NCBI GenBank assembly: GCA_026125595.1
Contig: JAHCKV010000004.1
Coordinates: 1 to 32,123, forward strand
Direction of reading: 5' to 3'
Length of the DNA stretch: 32,123 nucleotides
DNA from: Burkholderiales bacterium
Lineage (GTDB): Bacteria; Pseudomonadota; Gammaproteobacteria; Burkholderiales; Ga0077523
In this document: piece after piece, positions 8,700 through 30,057 of the stretch
How the letters are laid out: each line of letters starts with the position of its first letter
Numbering within the stretch: the first letter of the stretch is position 1
Program-made: the position numbers and the translations under genes
The notes under the pieces: model-generated
Databases searched by the model: none
What the model was told of the DNA's origin: nothing
The model's input: the letters and a program-made list of their open reading frames with translations, nothing else

Positions 8700-9025
8700 A
8701 TGGCGTACTGCCTCGCCTGCCAGACCCAGGGCACCATCCGCACCGAGGCGCCGAATTGGCAATCGTGGTTGCTGTTCTTCCTGCGGTCTCTGGCGGAGCA
8801 GGTGAGGCGCCTGAACCGGAAGATCGAGCGCGAGAAGCTGGTACTGGCAACGCTACCGGAGCTGTCGCTGCAGATCATCGAGTTCGCGCGCGAGCATGGT
8901 CGAGTGACGATGGGGGACGCGATCAGGCTGACTGGCGGCAGCCGCAACACTTGAGGCAGCGCTTCCGGGCATTGGTCGAGCGTGGCTACCTGGACCAACA
9001 AGGCGGCGGCCGCGGCGGCCGACGT
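8700..9025 (+). pseudogene. Fic-family protein, carboxy-terminal remnant with frameshift
   Basis: Only the last part of a Fic-type protein is recognisable. One frame reads TQGTIRTEAPNWQSWL, then a basic helix (RLNRKIEREKLVL) and the first half of a winged helix, EFAREHGRVTMGDAIRLTGG. It stops at 8952-8954 just after SRNT. The next frame continues the same domain as LRQRFRALVERGYLDQQG. A single missing base in the CACTTGAGG stretch near 8950 explains the break. The Fic catalytic core with HPFxxGNGR is absent, so no AMPylating activity is possible from this copy. The Fic assignment rests on my memory of the carboxy-terminal winged-helix domain in Fic/DUF4172-like proteins. The 160 bases between rng and this fragment hold nothing else I can support apart from the hairpin at 8573. 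Confidence 0.5.
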
Positions 9026-9075
9026 GTTGTTTCACTCGCAAATCGATTTTCAACACCCGCTGAATTCGAGGATGG

Positions 9076-9101
9076 CAGTGAAATCGCTTACGATTTCACT
9101 G
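9076..9101. promoter_or_regulatory. 11-bp inverted repeat, candidate AbiEi operator
   Basis: CAGTGAAATCG and CGATTTCACTG form a perfect 11-base dyad around the spacer CTTA, about 50 bases before the ATG of the AbiEi-type gene. The half-site core TGAAAT recurs at about 9100 (CTGAAATG) and at 9142 (GTGAAATCC), just before the start codon. AbiEi antitoxins are known to repress their own promoter by binding inverted repeats, so this array of TGAAAT sites is a plausible operator. The region is AT-rich compared with its surroundings. Confidence 0.5.
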
Positions 9102-9149
9102 AAATGCCATTTTCAGCGTCTACTGAATTCGGTTATTCCGGTGAAATCC

Positions 9150-10238
9150 ATGAATCCGCGTGACGTCGACGACCTTTGGCCCGGCCTGCTCCAGCGCCTG
9201 CTGGAGACGTCGCCCATCGTCGCCGCGGTAACGACGCGTTCAGCCCCCCACCGCCGCGACGAGAGCGCCGAAGGTGAAGTCGACTTCGCTGTCGCCGGGG
9301 AACCTCACCGCCTGATCGTCGCTTGCAAAGCGTCGGGCCAGCCGCGCCATGTGCGGGATGCGATTGGCCGGCTCGCCCCGGTCGTCGCTCGCGCGGCCGA
9401 TCTGACACGCGGTCTCGTGTTCGCGCCGTTCATCTCACCGGCGTCGCGTGCCTTGCTCGTCGAACACAACATGGGCTGGCTCGACTTGGCCGGCAATGCT
9501 CGCGTGGCATTTCCGCGCTTCCACCTCGAGATCAGCAAGGCGGATCGTGATCCGTTCGCGACCAAGCGCGAACAACGCTCCCTTTTCTTCCCGAAGTCTG
9601 CGCGCCTGTTGAAGCTGCTGCTGCATGAACCTCATCTTTCGTGGAAGGTGGCGGATCTCGCGGCTCGAGCCGACGTCAGTGTCGGCCAAGTCAGCAATGT
9701 GCGCCGTGCGCTGATCGAGCGCGAGTGGGCGCATGCCGAGACGGGCGAAGGATTTCGATTGACGCAACCCGATGCGCTGCTCGATGCGTGGCGGGACGAT
9801 GGCGTACAAGCACCGAGCATCGCGCTGCGCGGCTATACGCTGAAGCACGGGCGCGCGCTGGATGCCGCGATCGAACAGGTGTTCGCCAACGGCGATTCGC
9901 AGAATGTGCGAGTACTGTTGGCATCGCATTCGGTCGCCCGCCGTGCAGCGCCCTATGCCCGTGTCGCCGGCGAGTTTTTCTATGCGTCCCCGGCAGGCAT
10001 CACATTGCTCGAACAGCACCTCGAACTTGTGGCCACCGACAAGGGCGAGAACGTGACGATATTTGCCCCGGGCGATGCCGGGCTGTGGCAAGAGACGATG
10101 GCACTCGCCCCCAACCTTCGCGGCACCGGTCCGATCCAGACCTATCTCGACTTGTTGGCCAGTGGCGACCGAGGACGCGAAGCAGCGAGCCATTGGCGCA
10201 CCGAGAAGATCGACCCGATGCTGGCCGAATCGTCATGA
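9150..10238 (+). CDS. AbiEi-like type IV antitoxin / winged-helix regulator
   Basis: A 362-residue protein from the ATG at 9150. The reading frame is open to 8982, but the earlier part crosses the operator-like repeats and has no protein-like character. It has an amino-terminal domain with alternating hydrophobic strands (VDFAVAGEPHRLIVACKASG, somewhat reminiscent of a nuclease-like fold), then a helix-turn-helix region around residues 150-205 (KSARLLKLLLHEP, then VADLAARADVSVGQVSNVRRAL), then a mixed carboxy-terminal domain. This matches the longer AbiEi-type antitoxins of type IV toxin-antitoxin loci, which act as transcriptional autorepressors and neutralise a nucleotidyltransferase toxin. 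The next gene starts inside its stop codon (ATGA), as expected for such a pair, but that toxin is broken here. The antitoxin may now be an orphan regulator. Confidence 0.65.
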   Translation: MNPRDVDDLWPGLLQRLLETSPIVAAVTTRSAPHRRDESAEGEVDFAVAGEPHRLIVACKASGQPRHVRDAIGRLAPVVARAADLTRGLVFAPFISPASRALLVEHNMGWLDLAGNARVAFPRFHLEISKADRDPFATKREQRSLFFPKSARLLKLLLHEPHLSWKVADLAARADVSVGQVSNVRRALIEREWAHAETGEGFRLTQPDALLDAWRDDGVQAPSIALRGYTLKHGRALDAAIEQVFANGDSQNVRVLLASHSVARRAAPYARVAGEFFYASPAGITLLEQHLELVATDKGENVTIFAPGDAGLWQETMALAPNLRGTGPIQTYLDLLASGDRGREAASHWRTEKIDPMLAESS

Positions 10239-10505: not shown

Positions 10506-12575
10506 TTACGCACTTCTGAACCCTTCCGCCTCCAGCCTCTTTCGAATTTCGAGAATCGCTGCCGCTTGGCGCTCGCTTGGAATCCTTCCAGCGGTGCCAG
10601 CGAGCAGCAAGAGTTGATCTTCCTTTGCCGTAAGTTCGTTCCGCCGGATTCCCCACTCGCGCATCGCGCGCCAGTTTGATGACTTGTAGTTCACCACCTC
10701 AGTAACAGCAGCAATTCCCGCGTCGATGCGCGCCGCACCGAGTGCGTCAGCCTTGCGCTCCAGTTCCTCAGACTGAGACACAAGTTCCTCAGCAAGTTCG
10801 GGCAGAAGGCGCACGTGCTGCTGCTGTGCGCGTTGCCAAGCCAGCTCCTTCTTGCACCACTCGGTGACGTTTTCCAGTCCCTGCTCTGGCGAAGTAAGCA
10901 CTGAATACATCACCGGCGCGACAACCTTCAACTGCGCGGACAGCGCCGATGAAATCGTCTGCGTCCGCCAGATTGACTGAACATTCAGTGCGCCTCCGGC
11001 TCCTTGCTCGGCGATGATCTGCGCCAGCTTGGCAATCGTGAACGTGACGATGTTTGCGCGGTAGCCACCATCGTACCAATCGGTCTGGGTCGGAACCAGT
11101 TGCTCCAGCTCGCGGAACACGATCGCGTGCGCAACTACGCACTTGAAGAACTCGTCGTTGAACTGCAGCGGCTTCTGCTGCCACTCCGAGACAACGAGTT
11201 TGCTGTAGACGTCAAAGTTCTTCTGGGCGCCTTTGCTGACCTCGTGTGGCAACTGGCGCCAAGAGTTCTCGATCTTCGCGAGGTCAGTCTTTGTGATGAC
11301 CTGCCGTCTTGGATTGTCGGCTTCAAATCGAAGCTTCTCGGCCGGACTCATCTTTGAAGTCTCGATGCGGTACTGCCCTTTTGCGCGCTCGTAGAACCAA
11401 GCCGTCGGCCTCTGCGAGCCCGCCCTTGGTGGTGCCTTGATCCGCCGCGACAACTCTTCGAGTTTTCGGTGGAATGCATGATTCGAGAACAAATCAGAGT
11501 CATACACCTTCGTCTGCCTGTTCGCGTACTCGGAAATCTTTGGAATCAGTTCGTTGGACTTGTCTGCGTCGACAACGGAGAGCTTCATCTGGACGAAGAT
11601 TCCGTTGAGGTCCGCACCGTCCTTGCGGCGTGCGAGGGCGAGCGATGCGGTGGTCTGCCCGCCATTCACGATCTGCAGATCCGTCGCCGCCAGAAGCCTC
11701 GGACCGTCTGGCGTGTCGTGCGTTTCGACCGACGTTGCAGTCGCTGCGATGCCGTTGTTGAATGCAAAGAACATCTCCGGGCTCCGCAGGGCGGTCTCCC
11801 GGATTGCCTTGTTCACTTTCACAGCCTTTCCCAAAAAGCTTCTAACGTTGCCTTCGAGCAGTCGGCTGCCGTATTCCTCGTACATCCGCGCCAGCGCATC
11901 ACCGGGCAGCACGCAGAGATAACCGCTGTACTCGGATTGGTTCAAACTGGCTTTGAGGCATGGAACTCCACCGGAGACGAGACCGCCGAAGTCGACGGTC
12001 AATGCCTCGCGCCCAGATCTCGACGAGAGCGCATCGTGTAACCGCGCAATGTCCCAGATGTGGAACTCCGCGGGAATGCCACCGATGCTCTGTTCCGGCC
12101 AATCTCGAATCCGATCGCTCAGGATCCCGTCGGTGACCAAGTAGAACCTTAGCCTCGTGATGTTCGGCTGATGAATCTGGAGCAGCCCGGAGAAGTCCGA
12201 GGCAGGATCTTCTTCGGCCGGAAGATGGTCGTCGTTTCCCGTAAAAGCCTCGTCCACAAAGGCAACGATCTTCGAGAAAGTCGCCTTCGCGGTAGTCTGC
12301 GTCACGGTAGCCGGATGCTGCTCGCCGTCGAACTCGACTATGACTAGGCGCAGGGATCCGTCGGCCTCGTCGAAGGCATATCCGTCGACGCCGAGGCTCC
12401 GTCGCCTGGTTCCGGTGCCACGGTACTGGCATGGGACGAAGTCGACGAGTTCCTCCGCTTCTTCCAGCATCTCGCCGACTACCGAACCGAAGCCACCTGC
12501 GGGGTTGCGCCCCCCCAACTCCGCCATGGCGCGCGCGATGACACCGTCGCGAAACGCCCTCAGTTGCTCGTCCAA
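10506..12575 (-). CDS. AIPR family protein (abortive infection phage resistance domain)
   Basis: A 689-residue protein divergent from the DISARM-like operon. The AIPR core is recognisable: LLEGNVRSFLG (about 239-249), FFAFNNGIAATAT (about 269-281, with the NNG motif), LQIVNGGQTTASLA (about 300-313) and ISEYANRQTKV. The amino end has VDGYAFDE (D64) and VIVEFDGE (E81, D83). This resembles the first strands of a PD-(D/E)xK-type nuclease, but with aspartate where a lysine is expected, so it may be inactive. The carboxy end is helical and charged. AIPR proteins occur in phage-defence and restriction-modification loci, but their activity is not settled. The start is a TTG at 12575, preceded by AAGGGGG seven bases away. 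No earlier start is evident. Confidence 0.75.
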   Translation of the reverse strand: MDEQLRAFRDGVIARAMAELGGRNPAGGFGSVVGEMLEEAEELVDFVPCQYRGTGTRRRSLGVDGYAFDEADGSLRLVIVEFDGEQHPATVTQTTAKATFSKIVAFVDEAFTGNDDHLPAEEDPASDFSGLLQIHQPNITRLRFYLVTDGILSDRIRDWPEQSIGGIPAEFHIWDIARLHDALSSRSGREALTVDFGGLVSGGVPCLKASLNQSEYSGYLCVLPGDALARMYEEYGSRLLEGNVRSFLGKAVKVNKAIRETALRSPEMFFAFNNGIAATATSVETHDTPDGPRLLAATDLQIVNGGQTTASLALARRKDGADLNGIFVQMKLSVVDADKSNELIPKISEYANRQTKVYDSDLFSNHAFHRKLEELSRRIKAPPRAGSQRPTAWFYERAKGQYRIETSKMSPAEKLRFEADNPRRQVITKTDLAKIENSWRQLPHEVSKGAQKNFDVYSKLVVSEWQQKPLQFNDEFFKCVVAHAIVFRELEQLVPTQTDWYDGGYRANIVTFTIAKLAQIIAEQGAGGALNVQSIWRTQTISSALSAQLKVVAPVMYSVLTSPEQGLENVTEWCKKELAWQRAQQQHVRLLPELAEELVSQSEELERKADALGAARIDAGIAAVTEVVNYKSSNWRAMREWGIRRNELTAKEDQLLLLAGTAGRIPSERQAAAILEIRKRLEAEGFRSA

Positions 12576-12708: not shown

Positions 12709-13713
12709 GTGTCCGTTGATGTGGATGAAGTCCTGGGTGCGCTGAAGCGCGATGATCTGAGCTTGCTGGTCGGCGGAGAACCGATTTCAATCCCTCCTTG
12801 GTGCGACTGGCTCGTATGGCTTGGCCAGTGGATGCGGGCGCAAGCAGCTCTAGATGGACGGCGAGTCGCGGTCGTGAGGATGCCGAGCAGGCGGCTTGGG
12901 GCGGCGTTCACGGCCTTAGGGGCCGCATTCGCGTCGGCAAGACTCCATGACGATTCGCTCCACTGGGACGCCCTCCGGGGCCTCGCTCCCGGAACAAAAG
13001 TATTCTGGCGAGAACTTGGTTCATGTCGGTCGGCAGGCTGGTCGGGGACCATTGCCGGCCTCCGCCAGATCGACGATGGTGGAGACTTCTTGGAAGTCGT
13101 AGTCGAGGCGCGGGGAAAGACTCCGCAGAACACGCGCCTCTTCAGCAAATGGGCTGCACTCTCCTACGGGATAACGCTCGGCTCAGTAACCGCCCAAACG
13201 GATGAGCGACTGGCTTCTGCAGAGAGTTTCTTCAGGGCCGTAGTAGCGGGTGCCGCGCAGGGATGGATGCGCTCGCCGGCTATCGAGTGCACCGTCATCA
13301 CAGAGCGCAGTTCCTTTCTGAGCGACCTGACTGGCTTGGCCTTCCGCGCCGGCGCTGGTGGCGAGGCGTCCTTATCCGAACTTCTTGCGATCGCTGATGC
13401 TGGTAGAGGAGCCTATGTGAAGACGAGGATAGCGCCGGCACGAAATAATGGTGTCCTCGACGAATCCGGATCGATCACGGTTCTCGACGGCGCCTCCGCA
13501 GCTGTCCGGATGGGCGACACCATTGCAAGGAGTATCGTGGTCCTGCTCGATCAGTCCGAGTATGACGAGGAAGTCGAGCAGCTGATTCAAACCTTCTTGG
13601 GCTCCGCGGTTGATGCCCACATCCATGCACCTAGTCGTGGCGTGAAGACATCGCCGGCGAGCGTAGAGGCCTTCATGTTTGGTCTGCCTCTGCAATCCCG
13701 ATCGCGGATATGA
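12709..13713 (+). CDS. Unknown protein 1 of DISARM-like operon (334 aa)
   Basis: I do not recognise this 334-residue protein. It has no signal peptide or membrane segment. It shows alternating alpha/beta character: LDGRRVAVVRMPSRRLGAAF, then LAPGTKVFWREL, then IECTVITERSSFLSDLTGL, which could be strands of a Rossmann- or RecA-like fold, but no Walker A or catalytic motif is visible. It starts at a GTG and is the first gene of the operon. Its stop overlaps the ATG of the next gene by four bases (ATGA). With the next protein it totals about 893 residues, lies upstream of drmA and has no homologue I can name. One possibility is that the pair replaces, or is a split form of, DrmE, the unknown protein of class 2 DISARM. 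That is a hypothesis only. Confidence 0.7.
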   Translation: MSVDVDEVLGALKRDDLSLLVGGEPISIPPWCDWLVWLGQWMRAQAALDGRRVAVVRMPSRRLGAAFTALGAAFASARLHDDSLHWDALRGLAPGTKVFWRELGSCRSAGWSGTIAGLRQIDDGGDFLEVVVEARGKTPQNTRLFSKWAALSYGITLGSVTAQTDERLASAESFFRAVVAGAAQGWMRSPAIECTVITERSSFLSDLTGLAFRAGAGGEASLSELLAIADAGRGAYVKTRIAPARNNGVLDESGSITVLDGASAAVRMGDTIARSIVVLLDQSEYDEEVEQLIQTFLGSAVDAHIHAPSRGVKTSPASVEAFMFGLPLQSRSRI

Positions 13714-15389
13714 CACGATCGAAAAGAAGTTCCGTTAGTCAGCTCATGCGATTCGCTGAGCATGCCCCTGGCAAGCCCGACGCGACCCGCTCGTCTAAAG
13801 TCACATCCGTACTGGGCTTAGCGTCCGCCTACCACGCAAACTCAATCAGTTGCCGCATAGAACGAGTAGCCATTGACTTCCCCACCATGGTGGAGGTTTC
13901 GAAAGCTTGCTCAAGGATCTTCTCCGAAGTTGATCGCGACGACTCCGTCCAGCGGCGGGCTGCTCGAGATGCGTGGCTTGTCAAGTCGACGCTCATGTTC
14001 ACGGCGCTGCCATTCAATGACCCGCGCTTGGAATTGGATAGCCTCCTGAACAACCTTGAGCACGTTGCTCTGAGCGTTCCGGGCATCCGGACAGCGGTTG
14101 GCGACTTGGCTAGATCGGTTCGATCTCTCGCGTCAGCAGCCGTCAATCCGAAGCGAGAGCGTTTGCTCGCGATGCTCGATTGCCCTCAGGACAGTGGAGC
14201 ACCGTTGGCGATACTCGCCAACATCTGCGGGTCACCAACTCCAGGGTGGCCGACTACTCTGGCCGCCGAAAGCGATCTTGGTTCAACAGCCATCGAGCTG
14301 GTCCGCCTGCGAAGACAGATCCGAAGTACCCTGTTCACGCGATTGATAATTCCCGGAAGCCCCTGGTTTGCGCCGAGAGGTCTGCTGTTTGACCTCCTGT
14401 ACGGCGGACGAGCTTCCAACATCACTGTACTGACCTACCGCGCCGAACGCGTTTCGATACCAGCTCCCAGGAGGTTGCCAAGAGACACCTACTTCCCGGC
14501 AGCCGGCACTCAGTCCGGGCCGCTTCCGGAGGCAAGCGAACCCAACGAGGATATCCAGCTTGATCGATGGACACATGAATCATTCTGGTCCTCGATCCAC
14601 GCGCAGCACTCCGATATGACACCAACTTCGGGGAAGGATGTCTCTGTCGACGCCAGGTTTGTCCTTTTTGCCGACGGCACCGGTGCGTTCCTTCCAACAG
14701 AAGCAAGTGTCGTGGAGATTTCAGATCTGTTCGAGGAGGGAGCGAACTTCGATGTCACGGAAGACAAGCTTCCTCGAACTTACGTCAGAGACCTGGAAGA
14801 AGGGGATCTGGTGATGCTCCGGTTGTCCGGAAGCGGCGACTATCTCGACGACGTGGCCGATTCGCTCATCGAGAAGGCCGGCGAGGCCGGTCTGCGTGGT
14901 AGAGCTCTGCAATGGAAGGATCGGCTGCACGAAGTCATCAAGCGTCACGGGGAAGGTGTCGTGGCGATGAAGGTTCGAAGTCTCGGCGTGGGACTCCGAT
15001 CTCCGCAGTACCTCTGGGCCTGGGCTGGTGACGCTGTCATGGCGCCTCAAGACCGGCAAACGTTTCACAGCCTGATTGCAGTCACCCTGCGACTCGAGAG
15101 TCGCGAGAGTGGCGATGAAGCCGCGGCCTATGCGGATGCGCGGTGGGACGAAATGGAGCGTCTGAAGGCGTACCACCACAAGGCCGGCGTTGCAATACGA
15201 GCTGCGTTGTTGACCCGGGTGCGAGGCCTTGTTGCCGAGCGTCGACGTATCGACTCGGTTGAGTCAATCGAGCTGCCAGGGGTAGCAGCCGGTCGAATGG
15301 GCCTTCTGCGTGTGTCTGCCGTCGACACCAAATCAAGGCGAGTCCCAATTTCGAGGCTGTTCCATCTGAGCAAGGTGAAGGTGACCTAG
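13710..15389 (+). CDS. Unknown protein 2 of DISARM-like operon (559 aa)
   Basis: A 559-residue cytosolic protein with no motif I can name. The first third is helical. SPWFAPRGLLFDLLYGGRASNITVL looks like the core of an alpha/beta domain. After a low-complexity segment near residues 265-290 (SGPLPEASEPNEDIQ), a second domain contains DARFVLFADGTGAFLP, then LEEGDLVMLRLSG, then a long helical part (LIEKAGEAGLRGRALQWKDR and following) and a charged helix near the end (ARWDEMERLKAYHHKAG). It overlaps its upstream neighbour by four bases and its downstream neighbour by one base (TAGTG), so the proteins are likely made in step and may form a complex. A DrmE-like role is possible given its place before drmA, but not shown. 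Confidence 0.7.
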   Translation: MTRSKRSSVSQLMRFAEHAPGKPDATRSSKVTSVLGLASAYHANSISCRIERVAIDFPTMVEVSKACSRIFSEVDRDDSVQRRAARDAWLVKSTLMFTALPFNDPRLELDSLLNNLEHVALSVPGIRTAVGDLARSVRSLASAAVNPKRERLLAMLDCPQDSGAPLAILANICGSPTPGWPTTLAAESDLGSTAIELVRLRRQIRSTLFTRLIIPGSPWFAPRGLLFDLLYGGRASNITVLTYRAERVSIPAPRRLPRDTYFPAAGTQSGPLPEASEPNEDIQLDRWTHESFWSSIHAQHSDMTPTSGKDVSVDARFVLFADGTGAFLPTEASVVEISDLFEEGANFDVTEDKLPRTYVRDLEEGDLVMLRLSGSGDYLDDVADSLIEKAGEAGLRGRALQWKDRLHEVIKRHGEGVVAMKVRSLGVGLRSPQYLWAWAGDAVMAPQDRQTFHSLIAVTLRLESRESGDEAAAYADARWDEMERLKAYHHKAGVAIRAALLTRVRGLVAERRRIDSVESIELPGVAAGRMGLLRVSAVDTKSRRVPISRLFHLSKVKVT

Positions 15390-17170
15390 TGGCAAGGATG
15401 ATTCCCCCTCTCGTCGCCGCTGATACACCGAAGGGCGAAAAGCAGTTGTTCGGCAAGCTGCGAGACGATCCTAAGGCAAAGGATTGGCTGGTCTTCCACT
15501 CCTTTGATATACGCAGGCATGTCGCGCGGGCCCAAGGTGAGGCGGACATGGTGATCGTCGTGCCCAGCCTCGGCGTGCTCTGCATCGAGGTCAAGGGCTG
15601 CGGCGTTGTCCGCGAGGGGGGGCTCTGGACCTACTCCTACGACCCGCCTAAGACATCTACCGTCGGTCCCTTTCGTCAGGCAAGCCAAGCCGCTCACTCG
15701 ATCCGGCAATACCTCGCGCTGAAGGATTCATCTCTCACGGCCCTCATGTTTCACTCCGCGGTCTTGTTCACGGAGATTGACTTCGCCGACAAGTCGCTTG
15801 AGTGGGAGCCATGGCAGATCATCGGGCGAACCGAGTTTCTCCGGCAGCCGATCTCGTCGCTCGTGACCCGCGTGCTGGAGGCAGCTCATTCCCAGTGCCG
15901 TTCGCGTAAGCCAGTGCCAATCTGGTACGGAAGCCAAAGTCGTCCCACGCTTCGGCAAGTGGAGACCGTCCTGAGGCTCATGCGACCTGATTTCGAGTAT
16001 GCCGCATCTGCTCGCAATAGCGTGGAGCTTGTCGAGGCGGCAATACGCCGCTTCACGGACGAGCAGTTCGAAGGCATCGATCACCTTGAGGACAACCGCC
16101 GTGTGCTGTTCAAAGGGCCGGCAGGGACGGGCAAGACGTTCTTGGCGATCGAGGCCGCGCGAAGAGCGGTTCGCCATGGGCGCAGCGTTGCGCTCCTGTG
16201 TTTCAACAGTCTTCTGGCGTCATGGCTGAAACACGAGGCCGAATCGATCGAGCAAGAGGCGAAGACGCGCTCACTCTCGTTTTACGTCGGCAACCTTTCA
16301 GGGCTCATGCTCAGCATTGCAAAGATCAATGTGCCGGCGCCGGCAAACCAGGAGTTCTGGGGAGTCGAACTACCCATGCGCGCGGTGGATGTCTTACTGG
16401 CCGATGGCCGTGACGTGCCAAGCTTCGACTTGCTACTCGTGGACGAGGCACAGGACCTGCTGTCCGAGCCGATGCTAGACGTCATGGAATTGCTTTTGAG
16501 CGGTGGTCTCGGAAGCGGATGCTGGGCGATGTTCGGGGACTTCGAAAGGCAGGCGATCTACGCCGACAAGAGCGCAACGCTGGGACTCGACAGGTTGCGA
16601 AGCCGGACAGCCGACAGCGTGTCCACATACCGTCTTCGAATCAACTGCCGGAATGCCACCAGGATCGCCGAGGCAGTAACTATCACCAGCGGAATGTCTC
16701 CCGGCTACAGCAGGATCCTCAATACTGCCGATTCGGCCGATGTCGAACCGGTCTTCTACCACAGCCCCTCGCACCAGGGAGACCTGCTGCTAGCAACGAT
16801 CGCGAAGCTCCTGAAGTCGTTCGCCCCGCAGGAGATCGTCGTCCTGTCCATGCGCGCTGATGCCTCGTCCTGCGCCACTCGACAGGCACGCGATCAGGCA
16901 GGCTGGCACTTCGCTTCCTATCGCGACGAGCCGGGCACCGGCGCTGCGATCCGCTACTCAAGTGTTCACGCCTTCAAGGGACTGGAGGCCGCGGCGGTTG
17001 TGCTGACGGATATCGAAGGCATCGAGGACGATCAGGCCAAGGCGCTGCTCTATGTCGGCATGTCACGAGCAAGAATTCGGCTGCATGTCCTGATGCACGA
17101 GCGTCTCCGTTCAATCTACGACTCGATGCTTGATGCCGGACTCAAGGCAGCACTTCGGAGGTCTTCCTGA
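15389..17170 (+). CDS. NERD nuclease-domain / UvrD-like SF1 helicase fusion
   Basis: A 593-residue fusion. The amino-terminal NERD domain (about 15-130) has GEKQL, then GEADMVIVV with D53, and CIEVKG with E67 and K69, the D...ExK pattern of a PD-(D/E)xK nuclease. The rest is a superfamily 1 helicase: Walker A GPAGTGKT (243-250), Walker B VDEAQD (351-356), LRINCRNATRIAEAV, VHAFKGLEA (motif V-like) and YVGMSRAR (motif VI, 555-562). Such fusions are predicted to unwind and cut DNA. It starts at a GTG sharing a base with the preceding stop codon; an ATG nine bases on is an alternative. Its stop overlaps the drmA start (TGATG). Lying between the unknown proteins and drmA, it is translated as part of the defence operon. 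It is not one of the named DISARM subunits. Confidence 0.85.
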   Translation: MARMIPPLVAADTPKGEKQLFGKLRDDPKAKDWLVFHSFDIRRHVARAQGEADMVIVVPSLGVLCIEVKGCGVVREGGLWTYSYDPPKTSTVGPFRQASQAAHSIRQYLALKDSSLTALMFHSAVLFTEIDFADKSLEWEPWQIIGRTEFLRQPISSLVTRVLEAAHSQCRSRKPVPIWYGSQSRPTLRQVETVLRLMRPDFEYAASARNSVELVEAAIRRFTDEQFEGIDHLEDNRRVLFKGPAGTGKTFLAIEAARRAVRHGRSVALLCFNSLLASWLKHEAESIEQEAKTRSLSFYVGNLSGLMLSIAKINVPAPANQEFWGVELPMRAVDVLLADGRDVPSFDLLLVDEAQDLLSEPMLDVMELLLSGGLGSGCWAMFGDFERQAIYADKSATLGLDRLRSRTADSVSTYRLRINCRNATRIAEAVTITSGMSPGYSRILNTADSADVEPVFYHSPSHQGDLLLATIAKLLKSFAPQEIVVLSMRADASSCATRQARDQAGWHFASYRDEPGTGAAIRYSSVHAFKGLEAAAVVLTDIEGIEDDQAKALLYVGMSRARIRLHVLMHERLRSIYDSMLDAGLKAALRRSS

Positions 17171-20100
17171 TGTCACTACTCGACCAGAATCTTGCCAACA
17201 GAGAGCAAATGCTCGCGCGACTCCGCGCCGAGATCGTTGGTCCGGACCCGGCCGGAAAGCCGGTGTCTCTGGCCGACAAGCAGGCGATGACATGGGAGGA
17301 ATACCGCATTCCTCGGATGCAGGCAACCGGTGAAGAAATCGTGTGGCAAGACCCGCCTACCAAGCGATTTGGTGCAGGAATCCTGTTCCCAATCGGATCC
17401 ACGGAAGAGGTCTTGGTCAACGCAACCGAGACAGAAGCACTGGCGCCGGTCAACTCGCCGGATCTGGCACCCCCCGGACTGCAGTCGGACGATGAACTGG
17501 CGGCTCGAGAGCGGGCGCCATCGTACGGCGCACCTGCTGACGATCCGGAGGAAGAGGATGTCACCCTGGCCAACGCGTTCCGACCCTCTGCGATCGGCAT
17601 CAGCTTCATGGCTGATCTTTCGACCGAGACGACCGGTCTGGTCGTTGAACTCGTCAATGTCGGACGGGTGGGTTCGGCCCGAACGGTCGAGCATGCCTGT
17701 GGAACGTATGCGCCGCTGACTCTTCATCTTGGCGGAGCCGTCGGCAAGCCGCCGACGCCGCGCAAGGTGTGGCTGCGAATGCCGGTCGTCGACAGCGAGG
17801 GCAAGGTGCCTGCCGTGAGCGTCTCCTCGGCGGATCTGCTCAAAGCGAACCGGCCCATCAGGTGCTCGATCGGACCGGTGGCGCTCGGACTGGAACTGGT
17901 CGTCGTCTCGCGCTCCTGGCATGCGGCGCCAAGCGGGGCGCATCGGCTCCTCACGATTTCGGTCGCCAACAAGAAGCAGGCCAAAGAAAAGGAGATTGAC
18001 TCGCAGTGTCTCTACCAAGCAGGAATTCGAGTCAGTGGCGCAAGCAGCAACCGATGGATCGATGCCTACCCTGAGAGTTTGATCGCGGACTTTCGGGACG
18101 CCGATCCTCTCGCCGACGAGAACGTCAATCGTGTCCTGTACAGGGAGAACCGGACGTTTGCCATCGGCCACGGTTGCGGCGCTGACTGGATCGATGGCCG
18201 TCCGGAACTGGTCGGGACAGTGTGGTCGGATGTGCTGCCGGTCTTTGAAACGCCGGCCACGAGCGCTGACCTCTTCGTAAAGGACCCTGACGGCAAGCTT
18301 GAGCCTCTACGGGTCAGCATGCGACTGTTGGCAGGCCTTGAAAGGGATGCCGACGGACTCGCCGACGTCGATCGACTCATGCTGGAATACCAAGCCTGGA
18401 TAGGCGCACTCGATTCGAAGGTCTCCACGATTGCGGAGCGAAATCGTCCAACGGCAACGGAACTCATCGAGAAGTGTCATCAGTGCGCGAAGCGGATTGC
18501 AGACGGTCTTTCGCTCCTGCGGCAACATGACTCGCAGGGCGATGTCGCGCGCAAGGCATTCAGGCTCGCTAACCACGCGATGCTGGTCGCCCAACTCCGG
18601 TCACGGCAGGAACTGCGGCTGCCGGATCGCGATCCCAGCGGCCGACTGACATGGTCGAGGCCCATTGCGGCCGTGGACCCGGCTGTTCGCAACGAGAAGC
18701 AAGGCTACTGGAGACCGTTTCAGATCGCCTTCCTGCTCATGTCGTTGCGCGGGATCTGCGATCCGGCGCATCAGGATCGCAACGTGGTGGATCTCATCTG
18801 GTTTCCCACTGGCGGCGGGAAGACCGAGGCCTACCTGGGACTGACCGCGTTCACCGTCTTCTTCAATGCGCTTTCGGGAGTTGCCAACGGCGGTGTCGAC
18901 GTGCTCATGCGGTACACGTTGCGTCTGCTCACCGCCCAGCAGTTCCAGCGTGCGGCGACGCTGTTCTGTGCGATGGAGCAGATCCGCCGCCGGGATACTG
19001 CGGCCTTGGGCAACCGGCCGTTCCGGATCGGTCTGTGGGTCGGCAGTGCCGCCACGCCGAACAAGCGAGAGGACGCTGTCGAGAAGTTGAGAGCTCTGCA
19101 GCGCGACCCCGATGCGGAGAACCCGTACGTCCTGCTCAGATGTCCGTGGTGTGCTGCCAAGTTCGGTCCGCACGAAGCAGCCTCTGCATCGACCCAGCGA
19201 ACCAGAGGGGGCCGTGGTCGCCAGGCGTCAGGAGCGCATGTGTATGGCTACTCGAAGGAAAGGGGACCATCTGGAGACACTGTGGTCTTCAGATGCGGCG
19301 ACAGCAATTGCGAGTTCGGCGGTCTGCCCGGTCTGTCCACACCTCCTCTGCCTATCGTTGTCATCGACGAGGACCTGCTGGATGCGCCACCCAATCTCCT
19401 GATCGGGACGGTCGACAAATTCGCGATGCTCGCGTGGACACCGGCGGCGCGGAGCATCTTCGGCCTCGACGATGCAGGTCGTCACCGCGGTGTGCCGCCT
19501 ACGTTGATCATCCAGGACGAATTGCATCTGATCTCCGGGCCGCTGGGTTCGATGGTTGGTGCCTACGAGACCGTCATCGAGGCATTGTGCGTCGACCCTC
19601 TCGGCGGAATGATCCTGCCGAAGATCGTTGCCTCGACTGCGACAATCAGCCGAGCTCGCGAGCAGATTGCCGGTCTGTATGCACGGACAGCGGTCATGCT
19701 CTTCCCGCCTTCCGGCTTAGACGCAGCTGATTCGTTCTTCGCGCGCGAGGCCGTTGATGAGCACGGCCGGCCGAAGCCGGGAAGACTCTATGCAGGCGTG
19801 CTGGCTCCTGCACATACGTCCCTGCAAACATCGGAAGCGAGAGTCTTCGCCACGCTGATGCAGCATGCTTCGCTTCTGGAAGGCGAGGCGCGCGATCTGG
19901 ATCCCTGGTGGACATTGCTTGTCTTCTTCAATTCCCTGAGGGAACTGGGGGGCGCCGCGACGCTGTTCACGGCTGACACCCGCGAATATCTCAAGGTCAT
20001 CCTGAATCGCCATGGCGTCGAGTACGCCAAGATCCGCCAGCTCTTCCACGTCGAGGAACTGACCAGCCGCATCCGGGGTGACCACATTCCGCGCCTGCTG

Positions 20101-20856
20101 GAGCGCCTGGAGGTGCCGATGTCGGTCCGGGAAAGAGCCGGTACCCCAATACCGAGTCCCGCGCCCATCGACGCTTGCCTTGCGTCAAGCATCATCGAGG
20201 TGGGCGTCGACATCCCGCGCTTGTCGCTGATGGCGATCGTGGGCCAGCCAAAGACAACGTCTCAGTACATCCAGGTTTCGAGTCGCATCGGCCGGGACTT
20301 GGACAAGCCCGGGCTCGTCGTGGTCATCTACGGCCAGACCAAGCCGAGAGACCGGAGCCACTACGAAAGGTTTCGCTCGTACCACCAGCGCCTGTATGCG
20401 CAGGTCGAACCAACCAGTGTCACTCCGTTCAGCCCGCCGGCTGTCGATCGGTCCCTTCATGGTCTGGTCGTCGCGCTGGTGCGACAGCTCGGGCGCGTCG
20501 GCCACGAGGCGGACACCCCTGACCCCTTTCCACTGGCTCCAGGCAGCCAATTGCGTCTGAAGGTCGAGGAGGTCATCCGAGATCGTGTACGGGCAATCGC
20601 GCCTGACGAAGAGGCTTCCGTGTTGGGCAAGCTCAAGCATCGACTTGATCAGTGGAAGGCCTGGAATCCAGCCGAGTACGGAGGCTTCTCGAAGACCCCG
20701 GAGCACCCACCGCTGATGCATCCGGCAGGTCGCACGGAGCTTTCCCAATGGGGTGGTCGCAGCTGGGCAACGATGTCTTCCCTTAGAAATGTCGACGCCA
20801 GCTGCGAGGCAGATCTCACGGCGGAGTACAACGACATCCCCGAGGCAACACCATGA
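17170..20856 (+). CDS. drmA: DISARM-type helicase DrmA
   Basis: A 1228-residue superfamily 2 helicase with the DrmA layout. The first 500 or so residues are a family-specific region opening LLDQNLANREQMLARLR. RecA domain 1 has Walker A FPTGGGKTEA (546-552), an inserted zinc-ribbon with C658, C661, C709 and C714, Walker B as DELH (783-786), and STATISRA. RecA domain 2 has the arginine-finger motif QVSSRIGRD (about 1035-1043), after SSIIEVGVDIP. In DISARM, DrmA works with DrmB on incoming phage DNA and is thought to bind and translocate on it. All helicase motifs look intact. It overlaps the NERD-helicase gene by one base and drmB by four bases (ATGA), so the order of translation is tightly fixed. 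Druantia helicases are related, but they carry DUF1998 in the same chain, which this one does not. Confidence 0.88.
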   Translation: MSLLDQNLANREQMLARLRAEIVGPDPAGKPVSLADKQAMTWEEYRIPRMQATGEEIVWQDPPTKRFGAGILFPIGSTEEVLVNATETEALAPVNSPDLAPPGLQSDDELAARERAPSYGAPADDPEEEDVTLANAFRPSAIGISFMADLSTETTGLVVELVNVGRVGSARTVEHACGTYAPLTLHLGGAVGKPPTPRKVWLRMPVVDSEGKVPAVSVSSADLLKANRPIRCSIGPVALGLELVVVSRSWHAAPSGAHRLLTISVANKKQAKEKEIDSQCLYQAGIRVSGASSNRWIDAYPESLIADFRDADPLADENVNRVLYRENRTFAIGHGCGADWIDGRPELVGTVWSDVLPVFETPATSADLFVKDPDGKLEPLRVSMRLLAGLERDADGLADVDRLMLEYQAWIGALDSKVSTIAERNRPTATELIEKCHQCAKRIADGLSLLRQHDSQGDVARKAFRLANHAMLVAQLRSRQELRLPDRDPSGRLTWSRPIAAVDPAVRNEKQGYWRPFQIAFLLMSLRGICDPAHQDRNVVDLIWFPTGGGKTEAYLGLTAFTVFFNALSGVANGGVDVLMRYTLRLLTAQQFQRAATLFCAMEQIRRRDTAALGNRPFRIGLWVGSAATPNKREDAVEKLRALQRDPDAENPYVLLRCPWCAAKFGPHEAASASTQRTRGGRGRQASGAHVYGYSKERGPSGDTVVFRCGDSNCEFGGLPGLSTPPLPIVVIDEDLLDAPPNLLIGTVDKFAMLAWTPAARSIFGLDDAGRHRGVPPTLIIQDELHLISGPLGSMVGAYETVIEALCVDPLGGMILPKIVASTATISRAREQIAGLYARTAVMLFPPSGLDAADSFFAREAVDEHGRPKPGRLYAGVLAPAHTSLQTSEARVFATLMQHASLLEGEARDLDPWWTLLVFFNSLRELGGAATLFTADTREYLKVILNRHGVEYAKIRQLFHVEELTSRIRGDHIPRLLERLEVPMSVRERAGTPIPSPAPIDACLASSIIEVGVDIPRLSLMAIVGQPKTTSQYIQVSSRIGRDLDKPGLVVVIYGQTKPRDRSHYERFRSYHQRLYAQVEPTSVTPFSPPAVDRSLHGLVVALVRQLGRVGHEADTPDPFPLAPGSQLRLKVEEVIRDRVRAIAPDEEASVLGKLKHRLDQWKAWNPAEYGGFSKTPEHPPLMHPAGRTELSQWGGRSWATMSSLRNVDASCEADLTAEYNDIPEATP

Positions 20857-22970
20857 GCCGCCCCGTCAGAAGGTCGCAGGCCGTATCTCCGTTTGGCGTC
20901 GGCGCATTGGTCGACTTTCCGGGACCTGTATCTCTGATCCATGCCGGCTTGGATGCCTGGCCCTTCGACGAGAAGAACCCCGACCATCGCGAGTTCAGAG
21001 TGGATGACGAGCCGAGACTAGCAAGGCGGCTCGGCGTCGACTTCTTCGTTCAGCCTCCGGACTTCAGGCAGGTCGAGCGCGGTGGCTCCGGGGACGCAGT
21101 CAATCTCGGTCTAAAGCTGCCCTTCCTTCGCTTCCCGCTCTGGCATTCCTGCCCTCGTTGCGGCCGGATGTTCGAGGCCAAGTATCACCACCGCTTGGCG
21201 CCGGAATGTGACGGGCCGATTGGAAGCGGTGCAGACAAAGGAAAGTCGCACAGGAAGAGGCGCGCGATACAGGTCCGCTTTGTCAGTGTCTGCCGATCAG
21301 GCCACCTGCGTGACTTCCCCTGGGTCGAATGGCTGGGGCTTGAGCGTGCCGAATGGGATGGCGTCAGAACCGACCGCTGGCTCCGATTGCTATCTACAGG
21401 CTCCGCGTCCATTGCAGGCGTTGTTGTGGTTGCCGAACGTGCTGCAAGCTCCGGGTTGGTCGAAGTTGCCCGCAAGTCGCTTGCTGGCGCGTTCACCGTC
21501 GAGTCGAGCGGGGCCTCGGCCTTCACCTTGATGAAGCTGATGTGCGATGGTCAAAACCCCGCGCTTGGAATCGGGGATGGTGGTGACGACCCGACTGACC
21601 CCTGCGGGCAGGACCTGAGGGCCGTGCTTCGTGGCGCCAGCAACCTGTACTTCGGCGATGTCCGGAGTTCGATCTACGTTCCGGAAGTAGAGGACAGCGG
21701 GCTGCCGCAGGACGTGCTGGACCTTCTCGACGATCACTCATTCAAGCAGGAACTGCTGAACGGCGCCCTGGCCTCGGAAAGTGGAACCCTGGGAGCCAAG
21801 GCTGCAGGCGTGATCCTGCGGCGACGCCATCCGGAATCCGAAGTCAAGGCAGAGGTGCTTGCAGCTGCAGTCAACAAGCACATCCTGCACGAAATATTGA
21901 CTCAGCCCCGACTGATCGCGACTGCGCTGGTACAGAAGGCAAAGACAGCGGTGGATGGAAGAGTCACATCGAAGATGTTGGCGGACCTCATCGAGGTTGC
22001 GGTTCCGGATTGGTCAGTTGATCCTGGCCTGCTGGTGGATTCGGTGAATTCTTGGCTCAGGCATCGCGAAGGACTTGAGGCCGCGGGTGCACAGCAGCGG
22101 GCGGAAGACGTCTCCGACTGCACCTATCGTGCAGAGGAATACCGTGCCTTCAGTCGCGATGGACAGGATGGCCTGCCGAAGGTCAATCTGCTCGTGCGCA
22201 GCAAGCCCATCGAGCAATACACCGATCTCGTGCGAAGGAGTTTTTCGCGCGTCGCGTTGCTGGACAAGTTGCGGGAGACCCGCGCGTTCGTCGGCTTCAG
22301 CCGGATCTACACCAGCTCGAATACGCCGCCTGTGGAACGATGGAAGCTCATCTCAAGGACTCAACGGAACTGGCTTCCCGCCGTGGTCGTGCGCGGCGAA
22401 GGCATCTTCCTAGTCTTCGACAACGAACGCCTCGCTCAGTGGAACACGAACTTCGGCGCAAACCACAAGGAGCGGCTGAAACATGCGAATCGGAATCTGC
22501 AGGCGCAGGCACAGCGTCGTGAGGTTCACGCTGAAGATGCATCCCCAACTCTCGTTCTGCTACACACTTTCGCGCACGTATTGATCAGTCAACTTGTGTT
22601 CGATTGCGGATACGGCTCGTCCTCGCTTCGTGAACGGATCTACTTCTCCGAGACCCATCCACAGATGACCGGGGTGCTGATCTACACCGCTGCAGGCGAT
22701 TCGGAAGGCACAATGGGCGGTCTCGTCCGGATGGGCGAACCAGGACAGCTCGATCGAACTATCGCCAGAGCGCTCGATCGAGCGCGCTGGTGCTCCAGCG
22801 ACCCTGTGTGCATTGAGAGCGCAGGTCAAGGTCCCGACAACTGTAATCTCGCTGCCTGTCATTCATGTGCACTCTTGCCAGAAACTTCCTGCGAAATGCA
22901 GAACCGTCTGCTGGATCGGGGCATGTTGATTGGGGTGTTGGACGATCCAGAGATCGGCTTTTTCTCATGA
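20853..22970 (+). CDS. drmB: DISARM protein DrmB (DUF1998)
   Basis: A 705-residue partner of DrmA. The amino end, RRSQAVSPFGVGALVDFPGP followed by HAGLDAWP, is characteristic of DrmB. A zinc-binding site is formed by C100 and C103 (SCPRCG), probably with C147 and H151 (SVCRSGH). The DUF1998 domain occupies roughly 565-700: LLHTFAHVLISQL, then YTAAGDSEGTMGGL, then a cysteine cluster (WCSSDPVC, CNLAACHSCALLPETSCE) that likely binds another metal. DrmA and DrmB are reported to form a complex that senses DNA ends or unmodified DNA in DISARM. The gene starts within the drmA stop codon. Normally drmC (phospholipase-D fold) follows. Here there are only 60 bases before the convergent vsr gene, and no drmC. 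Confidence 0.88.
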   Translation: MSRPVRRSQAVSPFGVGALVDFPGPVSLIHAGLDAWPFDEKNPDHREFRVDDEPRLARRLGVDFFVQPPDFRQVERGGSGDAVNLGLKLPFLRFPLWHSCPRCGRMFEAKYHHRLAPECDGPIGSGADKGKSHRKRRAIQVRFVSVCRSGHLRDFPWVEWLGLERAEWDGVRTDRWLRLLSTGSASIAGVVVVAERAASSGLVEVARKSLAGAFTVESSGASAFTLMKLMCDGQNPALGIGDGGDDPTDPCGQDLRAVLRGASNLYFGDVRSSIYVPEVEDSGLPQDVLDLLDDHSFKQELLNGALASESGTLGAKAAGVILRRRHPESEVKAEVLAAAVNKHILHEILTQPRLIATALVQKAKTAVDGRVTSKMLADLIEVAVPDWSVDPGLLVDSVNSWLRHREGLEAAGAQQRAEDVSDCTYRAEEYRAFSRDGQDGLPKVNLLVRSKPIEQYTDLVRRSFSRVALLDKLRETRAFVGFSRIYTSSNTPPVERWKLISRTQRNWLPAVVVRGEGIFLVFDNERLAQWNTNFGANHKERLKHANRNLQAQAQRREVHAEDASPTLVLLHTFAHVLISQLVFDCGYGSSSLRERIYFSETHPQMTGVLIYTAAGDSEGTMGGLVRMGEPGQLDRTIARALDRARWCSSDPVCIESAGQGPDNCNLAACHSCALLPETSCEMQNRLLDRGMLIGVLDDPEIGFFS

Positions 22971-23030
22971 CTACCTGTGCCATCGTCGCGGATACAATCG
23001 AAATCCACTCATCGAGAGTTCGGTCACCCG

Positions 23031-23453
23031 CTACTTGTGAGAAACCCCGAACACTATTCGCCAGAACAGTTCGTCTAGCAGCATCGGGTCGCGAGCCTGA
23101 CACTCCCACATCGTGAGGACCGTCCATCCAGAAGCCTCCAGCGCAGTGACATTTCCTGCGTCGCGCCTAACGTTCTGTGCGAACTTGTGCGACCAGAACT
23201 CGGCTCGTGAGGAAGGTGTCGTTGCATAGGGACAACCCTGGTGCCGATGCCAAAAACAACCATGAACAAAGACGACGGTGCCGAACCGTGGCAGAACGAG
23301 GTCCGGACTTCCGGGCAAGCGCTTGTCATGGAGACGGTAGCGCAGCCCGGTTGCATGCAAGTACCTGCGCACTGTCAGCTCTGGCCGCGTATCCCGGCTC
23401 TTGATTCCGCGCATCATGCGAGAGCGTGTTGCCGTGTCAACGATGTCGACCAA
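23031..23453 (-). CDS. vsr: Very short patch repair endonuclease (Vsr)
   Basis: Vsr nicks DNA 5' of T in T:G mismatches left when 5-methylcytosine deaminates, starting repair back to C:G. The 140-residue protein opens MVDIVDTATRSRMMRGI and has the family core GSPDLVLPRFGTVVFVHGCFWHRHQGC. With the TTG start at 23453 the key residues are E25, D51, H64 and H69, the same numbers as in E. coli Vsr as I recall them. Position 63 is valine where the E. coli enzyme has threonine. A GAGGAG Shine-Dalgarno at 23462-23467, eight bases upstream, fixes this TTG start; the open frame further up has no Vsr similarity. It faces away from the 5mC methyltransferase gene, the usual company for vsr, and converges on drmB. 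Confidence 0.92.
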   Translation of the reverse strand: MVDIVDTATRSRMMRGIKSRDTRPELTVRRYLHATGLRYRLHDKRLPGSPDLVLPRFGTVVFVHGCFWHRHQGCPYATTPSSRAEFWSHKFAQNVRRDAGNVTALEASGWTVLTMWECQARDPMLLDELFWRIVFGVSHK

Positions 23454-23461
23454 TTTTCGAT

Positions 23462-23467
23462 CTCCTC
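23462..23467 (-). promoter_or_regulatory. Shine-Dalgarno fixing the TTG start of vsr
   Basis: On the - strand GAGGAG stands eight bases before the TTG at 23453-23451. This strong site selects a TTG start that automatic callers may miss. Confidence 0.7.
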
Positions 23468-23647
23468 TCAAATCAATTCTGCGCTTGCTGCCGGTAACCT
23501 GATGCAAGAGAGTACGGCGCTTCGAAACGACGGGCCCGGATGACCGGAGATGACGACATCCTGATATGCCGCTTGGTACGTTCTGGATAGGCGATCCACG
23601 AGGCTGATGCCCATGTTGGCGTAGTAAACACGAGAAGAAGAGTATCC

Positions 23648-25270
23648 ATGCCTGTACCCGTGATCGACCTCTTTGCAGGGCCTGGGGGTCTTGGCGAGGG
23701 ATTCGCCCGTACCAACTCAGTCCGCTTTGACATAGCAGTCTCGATCGAGAAGGACGAGATGGCCTTTGAAACACTCCGGCTGCGCGCCGCGCACCGGGCT
23801 CTCGTTCGAAGTGGTCAAGCCACACGTGCCACGTGGTCCCGCTGGGATACAACTCTCCACGATTCACCTTGGAGCATAGCTTTCGAGATGCTTCGGAGGT
23901 CCGGCGACGCGGCTATTGAAGCCGCGTGCGAGGCCGCACGACAGGAGAGCTGGAATCTGGAGATGGGCCCGAAGAACAGAGCTCAAGTCTCTCAGGGAAT
24001 CAGACAACGCCTGCGGCCATTCATGAGACGCCAGCGTCTACCGGACAACATCGTGCTTATCGGCGGTCCGCCATGCCAAGCCTATTCCGTGGTGGGAAGG
24101 TCCCGGAATCGGGGAACAGAAGGATATCAAGCCGAAAACGACCACCGCCACTTTCTCTATCGAGAGTATCTGCAGGTGATCAACGAGTTCCGGCCAGCTG
24201 CGTTCGTCATGGAGAACGTGAAGGGCATTCTTTCCTCACGGGTGTCAGACCGACAGATTTTCGAGACGATCACCGCCGATCTCAAGCGTCCTGACCTTGC
24301 TTGCGGCCGGGACACTGATCTGGGCTATGTGCTGGTCGCGCTTCCGCATGGTTCGTCGACGCCAGCAGACCCGGACCCTTCGCACTACATTGTCGAGGCG
24401 GAAAAACATGGCGTGCCGCAAGCACGCCACCGAGTCATCATTCTTGGTTTCCGGCACGATGTGTTTGCCCGTGCAGGAATCGTACGAAAGCTCCGGCCCG
24501 GAAATCCCGCCACGGTCAATGACGTGATTCTTGACTTACCTCTCCTGCGTCCTGAGCTGTCTTTCAGGGGTAAGGGCATGACGTGGCTGGATAGCTTCGA
24601 CCTGCCGATGATGCCGAATGCGCTTGAAGAGTTGCGATCGACGGGGCGATCGACTGACAAGCGTGTGGCCGCGATGATGGAGAAAGTACGGGCGCGTCTA
24701 CGCGGTCGCTACGATCCAGGATCTGGTGCCGATCGCATTCTGTTCAATCGTGGTGCAATGCCTGGACCAAAAGTACATGCGCGTTGGTATCGCGATCGAC
24801 CGCTGGAACTGCTCGCAAACCATCAGTCTAGGTCGCACATGCCGAGCGACTTGGTGCGGTACTTGTTCGTATCGGCTTACGGCGTTGAGTCCGGAGAGAG
24901 TCCGCGGCTCTCTGACTTTCCGGTCACCCTGTTGCCCGAGCACCGCAACGTCAATCCTGCCAACTTGCAGGATGCGATCTTCAAGGATCGGTTCCGGGTG
25001 CAGATCGCCGATCGATGCAGCATGACGGTGACCAGCCACATCGGCAAGGACGGCCATGCATTCATTCACCCTGATCCTTTTCAGTGCCGCAGTCTCACGG
25101 CACGCGAAGCTGCACGAATACAAACTTTTCCAGACTCGTATGTCTTTCTCGGTAACCGCACCTCCCAGTACACGCAGATCGGGAACGCGGTTCCTCCTTT
25201 CTTGGCCGCTCAGATTGCCGATGTCGTTGCGGACGTGATGGTGAAGGCGAGAGTTGCAGTTCACTCGTGA
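23648..25270 (+). CDS. drmMII: DNA (cytosine-5) methyltransferase, DrmMII-like
   Basis: A 540-residue C5-cytosine methyltransferase. The ordered motifs are present: I DLFAGPGGLGEGF (7-19, SAM binding), IV GGPPCQAYS (139-147, nucleophile C143), VI MENV (188-191), VIII QARHR (about 258-262) and X QIGNAVPPF (about 510-518). The long stretch between VIII and IX (about 270-470) should hold the target-recognition domain. An extra insertion sits between I and IV. In class 2 DISARM the methylase DrmMII is of this type and marks host DNA as self. Its link here to drmA and drmB is by position only: it has its own start with GAAGAAGAG upstream and is separated by vsr. It could equally be an independent Dcm/Vsr pair or solitary methyltransferase. 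Confidence 0.85.
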   Translation: MPVPVIDLFAGPGGLGEGFARTNSVRFDIAVSIEKDEMAFETLRLRAAHRALVRSGQATRATWSRWDTTLHDSPWSIAFEMLRRSGDAAIEAACEAARQESWNLEMGPKNRAQVSQGIRQRLRPFMRRQRLPDNIVLIGGPPCQAYSVVGRSRNRGTEGYQAENDHRHFLYREYLQVINEFRPAAFVMENVKGILSSRVSDRQIFETITADLKRPDLACGRDTDLGYVLVALPHGSSTPADPDPSHYIVEAEKHGVPQARHRVIILGFRHDVFARAGIVRKLRPGNPATVNDVILDLPLLRPELSFRGKGMTWLDSFDLPMMPNALEELRSTGRSTDKRVAAMMEKVRARLRGRYDPGSGADRILFNRGAMPGPKVHARWYRDRPLELLANHQSRSHMPSDLVRYLFVSAYGVESGESPRLSDFPVTLLPEHRNVNPANLQDAIFKDRFRVQIADRCSMTVTSHIGKDGHAFIHPDPFQCRSLTAREAARIQTFPDSYVFLGNRTSQYTQIGNAVPPFLAAQIADVVADVMVKARVAVHS

Positions 25271-25321
25271 GCACTCGAGTAAGCGTTTGACGCTCATCGC
25301 TGAGGTGCGTGCGGAACGAGG

Positions 25322-25408
25322 CAATTCCATCGGCTGAGCGCGCTCGTGCGCCAGGTTGAGCAGCCGCTGCCGCACCGAGGCGCCGACGTTGCGCGGTCGG
25401 TCAGGCAT
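25322..25408 (-). pseudogene. AbiEii toxin, 5' remnant (about 29 codons)
   Basis: On the - strand an ATG at 25408, overlapping the end of the antitoxin gene by eight bases, begins MPDRPRNVGASVRQRLLNLA and continues HERAQPMEL. This is the standard opening of AbiEii/AbiGii nucleotidyltransferase toxins located after AbiEi. After codon 29 the similarity stops: relatives continue with LLxRYALERLLYRLS, but here the frame reads PRSARTSAM and on into the back of the methyltransferase gene. The catalytic GS-x-D nucleotidyltransferase motif is gone, so the toxin cannot work. The break near 25320 therefore gives a sharp right-hand junction of the island. Confidence 0.7.
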
Positions 25409-26024
25409 CGCCGGTCAGCGCCATCACGTAAGGCTCGATTCCGGCCCAAACGCCGGCAGCTTTGGCCTCACGCGCAATCTCCGCGGGCGTTGCCTTCCGC
25501 CGCCGCAGCGCTTGGCGCAGGCCCTCGAGGGCAAGGGCATCGCCCACCGTTCGACGATAGCGGAACAGGTCGGCTACGGTCTTGGCAACGCCGAACACGG
25601 GCACGGTTGTACCGGCGATCTTCTTGTGCTCGACGCCGCGGTGTAGAAGCTCGTCGGAGAATCGGGCGACTCGGATCGGCGGGTAGCTGACGCGAGGGCG
25701 CCAGTCCTTGCGGCCGATGGCGATCCAGACCTTCGGCGGCATTTGGTCGGTCAGTCCGTGGAAGGCCAGCGCAGATGCCAGGCAGATGATGCCCCTCGGC
25801 ACGAGCCGCGCCGCTTCAGCTAGCGATTGCTGGGGATCGAGCTTGGCGTCGGGCAGTTGGTACAGGCCACGAGCAAGACGCACGACCTCACCGGCACGCT
25901 CCATGCGGCCCACCGTGGTGGCGGTGATGCCCGCCTCGCTGAACTCAGCCAGCCGCGTCATGCCCCGCCGCCTGAGCAGAGCCAGCGCCTGGGCGCGTTG
26001 CGTGAAGATCTCAGAGTCGGACAT
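25401..26024 (-). CDS. abiEi: AbiEi-family type IV antitoxin
   Basis: A 207-residue protein beginning MSDSEIFTQRAQALALL. It has an amino-terminal winged helix (MTRLAEFSEAGITATTVGRMERAGEVVRLARGLYQLP, about 22-58) and a carboxy-terminal domain with IICLASALAFHGLTDQMP, HRGVEHKKIAGTTVPVFGVAKTVADLF and ALEGLRQALRR, all typical of AbiEi antitoxins. These repress their own operon and neutralise the AbiEii nucleotidyltransferase. The ATG at 26024 has GAGGAG nearby; an earlier ATG at 26093 lies before the promoter-like boxes and is rejected. The toxin downstream is truncated, so the antitoxin is either a relic or is kept as a regulator or as an antidote to other AbiEii toxins. Confidence 0.88.
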   Translation of the reverse strand: MSDSEIFTQRAQALALLRRRGMTRLAEFSEAGITATTVGRMERAGEVVRLARGLYQLPDAKLDPQQSLAEAARLVPRGIICLASALAFHGLTDQMPPKVWIAIGRKDWRPRVSYPPIRVARFSDELLHRGVEHKKIAGTTVPVFGVAKTVADLFRYRRTVGDALALEGLRQALRRRKATPAEIAREAKAAGVWAGIEPYVMALTGDA

Positions 26025-26063
26025 GTTGTGACTCCTCGGGTGAATCAACGAATTGTCCGAGGT

Positions 26064-26093
26064 TTTATACCACTCCGCGGCGCTTGCGAGCAA
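26064..26093 (-). promoter_or_regulatory. Predicted promoter of the right-hand abiEi
   Basis: On the - strand TTGCTC (26093-26088) and TATAAA (26069-26064) are separated by 18 bases, a fair sigma-70 match, 40 bases upstream of the ATG. Between it and the gene lies a six-base dyad (CCGAGG at 26057-26062 and CCTCGG at 26034-26039, 17-base spacer) that could be an autoregulatory operator. Confidence 0.5.
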
Positions 26094-26195
26094 CTTGGAT
26101 GCAGCGAAGCTCGCCGACCCCGTCGCGTATTGCGTACTTCAATGCATCGCCGGGGCCCGACCCGCGGCCCCGGCGAGATGCCATCGGACTACCGA

Positions 26196-26873: not shown

Positions 26874-26998
26874 GATTTTCTCCTTTCGTGTCGAAATCCC
26901 GAATGGCTTCGGGCTGGTTGAACGATAAGGAGAGTCCGGCTGGTCGAGTAGCCGTGCCCGGATTGACAGATTGGAAAACGGAACAAGACAATCGGCCC

Positions 26999-27901: not shown

Positions 27902-28002
27902 GCCGGACTAAGCCGATCGACTACCGCCAGAAAAAAGTTGGCGGCCTGGAGAAAAATGAAAATAAATCCAATTTTCGTCGATATCATGCAATTATCGGCT
28001 TT

Positions 28003-28019: not shown

Positions 28020-28023
28020 CGCC

Positions 28024-29345: not shown

Positions 29346-29358
29346 ATACGGCTACCCT

Positions 29359-30048: not shown

Positions 30049-30057
30049 AGCGGATCC

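Follow-up and report, generated by a model that had tools for sequence, protein, structure and literature searches.

A putative DISARM variant from a Burkholderiales bacterium in which DrmE is probably divided between two overlapping genes

The operon and its relation to class 2 DISARM

Class 2 DISARM comprises DrmA, DrmB, DrmC (a PLD nuclease), DrmE and DrmMII. Its DrmE, a protein for which we know of no described function, is encoded by one gene ahead of that for DrmA and is accompanied by DrmA, DrmB and a C5 methyltransferase; a single chain of ~800–900 residues is a usual, though not a defining, trait. A NERD nuclease is instead found in TALON, described as a YprA-family system (ARMADA-like helicase with TPR-CSD and TBP genes; PMC12458937). 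We analysed a 32,123-nucleotide stretch of a Burkholderiales genome (the window; contig JAHCKV010000004.1), whose sequence points to a new variant of DISARM with a putative defence function, with the following features:

10506..12575, reverse strand: AIPR (abortive infection) protein, encoded divergently to X1; Pfam AIPR 3.3e-95; exact start uncertain
12709..13713, forward strand: X1, 334 aa, GTG start (ORF call); putatively the N-terminal chain of a DrmE encoded by two genes
13710..13713, forward strand: ATGA stop/start overlap of X1 and X2, read from the sequence
13710..15389, forward strand: X2, 559 aa, ATG start; predicted C-terminal chain of a two-gene DrmE, with DrmE_C in the last ~270 residues
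15389..17170, forward strand: fusion of a NERD nuclease and a UvrD-like (SF1) helicase, 593 aa; Pfam NERD 7.1e-11, UvrD_C_2 1.5e-9
17170..20856, forward strand: DrmA, SF2 helicase, 1228 aa; NF038325 858 bits (just under the cut-off of 950), PADLOC DrmA 3e-210
20853..22970, forward strand: DrmB, DUF1998/MZB, 705 aa; NF038324 392 bits (cut-off 240)
23031..23867, reverse strand: Vsr endonuclease; Pfam Vsr 5.3e-30, also PADLOC
23648..25270, forward strand: C5 cytosine DNA methyltransferase, DrmMII-like, 540 aa; PF00145 2e-44, PADLOC DrmMII 2.4e-84

The locus resembles class 2 DISARM in having DrmA, DrmB, a C5 methyltransferase and a DrmE-like component, but differs from it in its AIPR and Vsr neighbours. 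Moreover, no DrmC was found among the window ORFs tested (12709 to 32045), a NERD/UvrD nuclease-helicase is present, and DrmA falls outside the class 2 clade and far from it; the operon is not a standard class 2 DISARM. Like TALON, the window has a YprA-type helicase together with a NERD nuclease, but, judged by the description of TALON, it differs in encoding the DISARM proteins DrmA and DrmB in separate genes. The literature searched, to which the founding DISARM paper did not belong, contained no report of a split DrmE or of a NERD protein in DISARM.

The catalytic D53/E-x-K and the Walker A/B motifs of the NERD-UvrD protein are intact. Its gene adjoins DrmE, whether split or fused, in the window, in G909 (a genome from another family of the same order), in Rhodococcus and Deinococcus, and in the genomes G820 and G495. 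Searches of Nostoc and Priestia loci did not reveal it, a point against the reading favoured below. The methyltransferase, with its PPCQ, ENV and QxRxR motifs, is only a possible member of the operon, since it is separated from DrmB by the reverse-strand Vsr gene. The true start of the latter probably lies further in because the 5′ part of the ORF overlaps the methyltransferase start. Vsr also occurs near the methyltransferase in G909, G495 and the Rhodococcus locus.

An AIPR gene lies divergently beside the operon in three genomes from two phyla, those of the window, G909 and G820 (window 10506–12575, L035 5632–7704 and L037 3103–4872, all on the reverse strand); its place in G909 matches that in the window. 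Since the window and G820 copies share only 31% identity, this association does not reflect a recent shared island. Elsewhere in the window are a 418-aa protein with a weak AbiEi_2 match just before the AIPR gene (8982–10238, forward), an AbiEi-type antitoxin or regulator for which we identified no partner toxin (25401–26093, reverse; PADLOC AbiEi 1.4e-78), and an AAA_21 ATPase and RloB-like pair matching PADLOC AbiLi/AbiLii (28212–30048, forward), which adds a second defence system to this island.

X1, X2 and the C-terminal domain of DrmE

The first-pass annotation had described two proteins of 334 and 559 residues that overlap by ATGA, total about 893 residues, lack a Walker A motif and lead the operon just 5′ of the helicase genes. 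All of this was borne out: the joint length is 893 aa, no P-loop match occurs in either protein, and the NERD/UvrD helicase, DrmA and DrmB genes follow, the GTG of the first overlapping the X2 stop by one base at 15389. The ORFs are not chance ones, since G909 carries both (62% and 64% identity for X1 and X2 respectively) with dN/dS of 0.19 and 0.08, values that indicate purifying selection on each. The region around X1 showed no consensus for a promoter or terminator, PDB sequence searches gave no credible match, and the viral contigs searched contained no relatives.

That neither protein has a nameable motif was correct for X1, which matched nothing in Pfam, PADLOC or NCBIfam, but not for X2, where a weak, correctly placed match to DrmE_C had been missed. 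Window X2 scores 18 bits against Pfam DrmE_C (PF24957; E=0.0024, profile positions 29–176 of 181), below the cut-off of 27 bits, which its Nostoc and Priestia homologues exceed (35.5 and 28.8 bits). With hhalign, a profile of the C-terminal half of X2 matched a profile of six DrmE proteins at E=7.8e-15, or 1.8e-15 in another build. Four of the six come from DrmE–DrmA–DrmB operons in which, by annotation or by our reading, DrmB is followed by a phospholipase-D-type gene. Columns 618–865 of the joined X1+X2 profile aligned to DrmE 612–858, the region in common spanning ~235 residues. In four of the five split systems compared, the DrmE_C-like part of joined X1+X2 begins at residue 600–638, and in the fifth, Rhodococcus, at ~550 (552), as against near residue 600–670 in single-chain DrmE, the starts for partial matches being extrapolated from the profile position. 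The N-terminal half of X2 alone gave no significant match to DrmE (best 0.016), and a 480-column X2–DrmE alignment was dropped, as later builds did not reproduce the match outside the C-terminal 235 columns. On these profile matches, X2 carries the C-terminal domain of DrmE and is identified as its C-terminal part.

Split and single-chain systems

The two-gene arrangement is old and common to several lineages: X1–X2 pairs were found in Nostoc, Rhizonema, G909, the window and plasmids of Deinococcus, Rhodococcus and Priestia, the split loci thus spanning five phyla (Pseudomonadota, Actinomycetota, Deinococcota, Cyanobacteriota and Bacillota). An X1 homologue stands directly 5′ of X2 in nine loci beyond the window, and the two genes overlap in all ten split loci, by ATGA in eight and over a longer stretch in two; the joint length in the other split systems is ~811–897 aa. 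X2 is frameshifted on the Priestia plasmid and interrupted by an insertion sequence on one Nostoc plasmid. Among sampled genomes, X2 occurred in one of 398 from the window's phylum (the window's own genome) and in two of 200 from its order, and DrmE_C in three of 386 from cyanobacteria.

A search for genomes with the pair fused, proposed in the first-pass annotation, found the predicted arrangement in NERD–DrmA–DrmB operons of G820 and G495, whose single-chain DrmE proteins of 863 and 917 aa score 47–48 bits against DrmE_C. The order in G820 is AIPR (divergent), NERD helicase, DrmE, DrmA, DrmB and C5 methyltransferase, and in G495 C5 methyltransferase, DrmE, NERD helicase, DrmA and DrmB. In a DrmA tree (a small sample of 21 sequences; midpoint root, several long branches), the seven split systems group in a single clade (100/99) whose sister is the fused G820 (100/99), and class 2 DrmA forms a separate clade (100/100). 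Because the split systems share one DrmA clade with a fused system as its sister, it is simplest to suppose that DrmE underwent a single fission and that the split form then spread horizontally.

Two further loci came to light. On Lactiplantibacillus plasmids, an 801-aa protein lies between the C5 methyltransferase and DrmA (L014, 5829–8234); taken as a DrmE candidate, it was set aside for having no DrmE_C match, but the DrmA of this locus groups with that of the fused-DrmE G495 (88/96) and the protein is possibly a very diverged DrmE. A Tsukamurella plasmid carries a RelA/SpoT-domain protein (L012, 5648–7042) followed by UvrD helicase, DrmA and DrmB, a possible further DISARM variant.

X1, alternative readings and a proposed mode of action

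Comparison of X1 with DrmE N-terminal halves by blastp, HMMER and hhalign (local, global and with sub-profiles) revealed no significant similarity, and global and local shuffle z-scores and an ordered conserved-block test were likewise negative. Such tests have little power here, because the N-terminal halves of accepted DrmE proteins (class 2 versus fused NERD systems) also fail to detect each other. In a MAFFT alignment of X1 and DrmE, P-[TS]-R, LxxGTxV and VxDGA blocks looked suggestive by eye but were rejected as statistically unsupported; AlphaFold2 models of X1 and X2 were uninformative (pLDDT 35 and 36), and an X1-like match in G1059 was dropped because a chemoreceptor gene runs across it in a different frame. 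The split DrmE surmised in the first-pass annotation is thus partly supported: searches of each protein and of their concatenation, as proposed there, bear it out for X2 (Pfam and hhalign) and for the joined C-terminal columns, and gave no significant match for X1. Since no method tied X1 to the DrmE N-terminal half, we infer that identity from position, length and overlap.

Class 2 DrmE and the X1–X2 pair have in common the DrmE_C domain, the joint length and the place ahead of DrmA, which in the corresponding operon of the sister lineage is held by a DrmE of one chain; they differ in that the window has two overlapping genes (334 + 559) with an unalignable N-terminal half and lacks the single chain that its fused relatives have. 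We consider it likely that X1 and X2 are the halves of a DrmE split by one gene fission within a DISARM branch, and that they probably form one two-chain DrmE.

X1 might instead be an unrelated accessory subunit acquired by the operon, in which case X2 would be a DrmE that has lost its N-terminal half or had it replaced. Although no sequence test connects X1 to DrmE, we regard this as unlikely, since X1 accompanies X2 in ten of ten loci and, in the loci read, never adjoins a single-chain DrmE, and since X1+X2 is as long as DrmE and has the C-terminal domain in the corresponding place. Less probable still is that X1 and X2 are not DrmE but a separate DISARM accessory pair with only a small helical domain in common with it. 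The PADLOC 2.0 DrmE models do miss X1 and X2, as well as the single-chain G820 and G495 proteins, but they also overlook a Streptomyces DrmE that lies in a canonical operon and passes Pfam DrmE_C; moreover, the common region of ~235 residues occupies the same place in chains of equal total length. An ordinary DrmE with its frame broken by sequencing error or recent mutation, as the fragmented, 64% complete window assembly might suggest, is refuted by the loci with the same overlapping split, namely G909, where it lies on a single contig, and the plasmids and genomes from five phyla; the purifying selection on both genes also speaks against it.

For the two-chain DrmE that we favour, coupled translation across the X1/X2 overlap would produce both chains, which would then associate and probably act as one protein. 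In another system, DrmAB was shown to bind DNA that has a 5′ single-stranded overhang, and unmethylated DNA stimulates its ATPase activity (PMC9142583); window DrmAB may similarly load on phage DNA that is unmethylated and offers a free 5′ single strand. X1–X2 could bridge DrmAB to the NERD nuclease-helicase, which would destroy the phage DNA in place of DrmC, while self DNA would be marked by the C5 methyltransferase, Vsr would repair the mismatches created by 5mC, and AIPR may serve as a fallback suicide effector. With slightly more confidence than doubt, we see here a distinct, unnamed DISARM class, made up of DrmA, DrmB, a once-split two-chain DrmE and a NERD nuclease-helicase replacing DrmC, with AIPR as a possible linked suicide arm, that has spread horizontally among the five phyla.

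The X1/X2 break, natural and selected, would mark where DrmE can be divided and suggests that its architecture is one of two modules, providing two smaller chains usable for expression and structural work on DrmE. NERD-DISARM systems escape the PADLOC DrmE models, and the NERD protein in the operon suggests which nuclease cuts where DrmC is absent.
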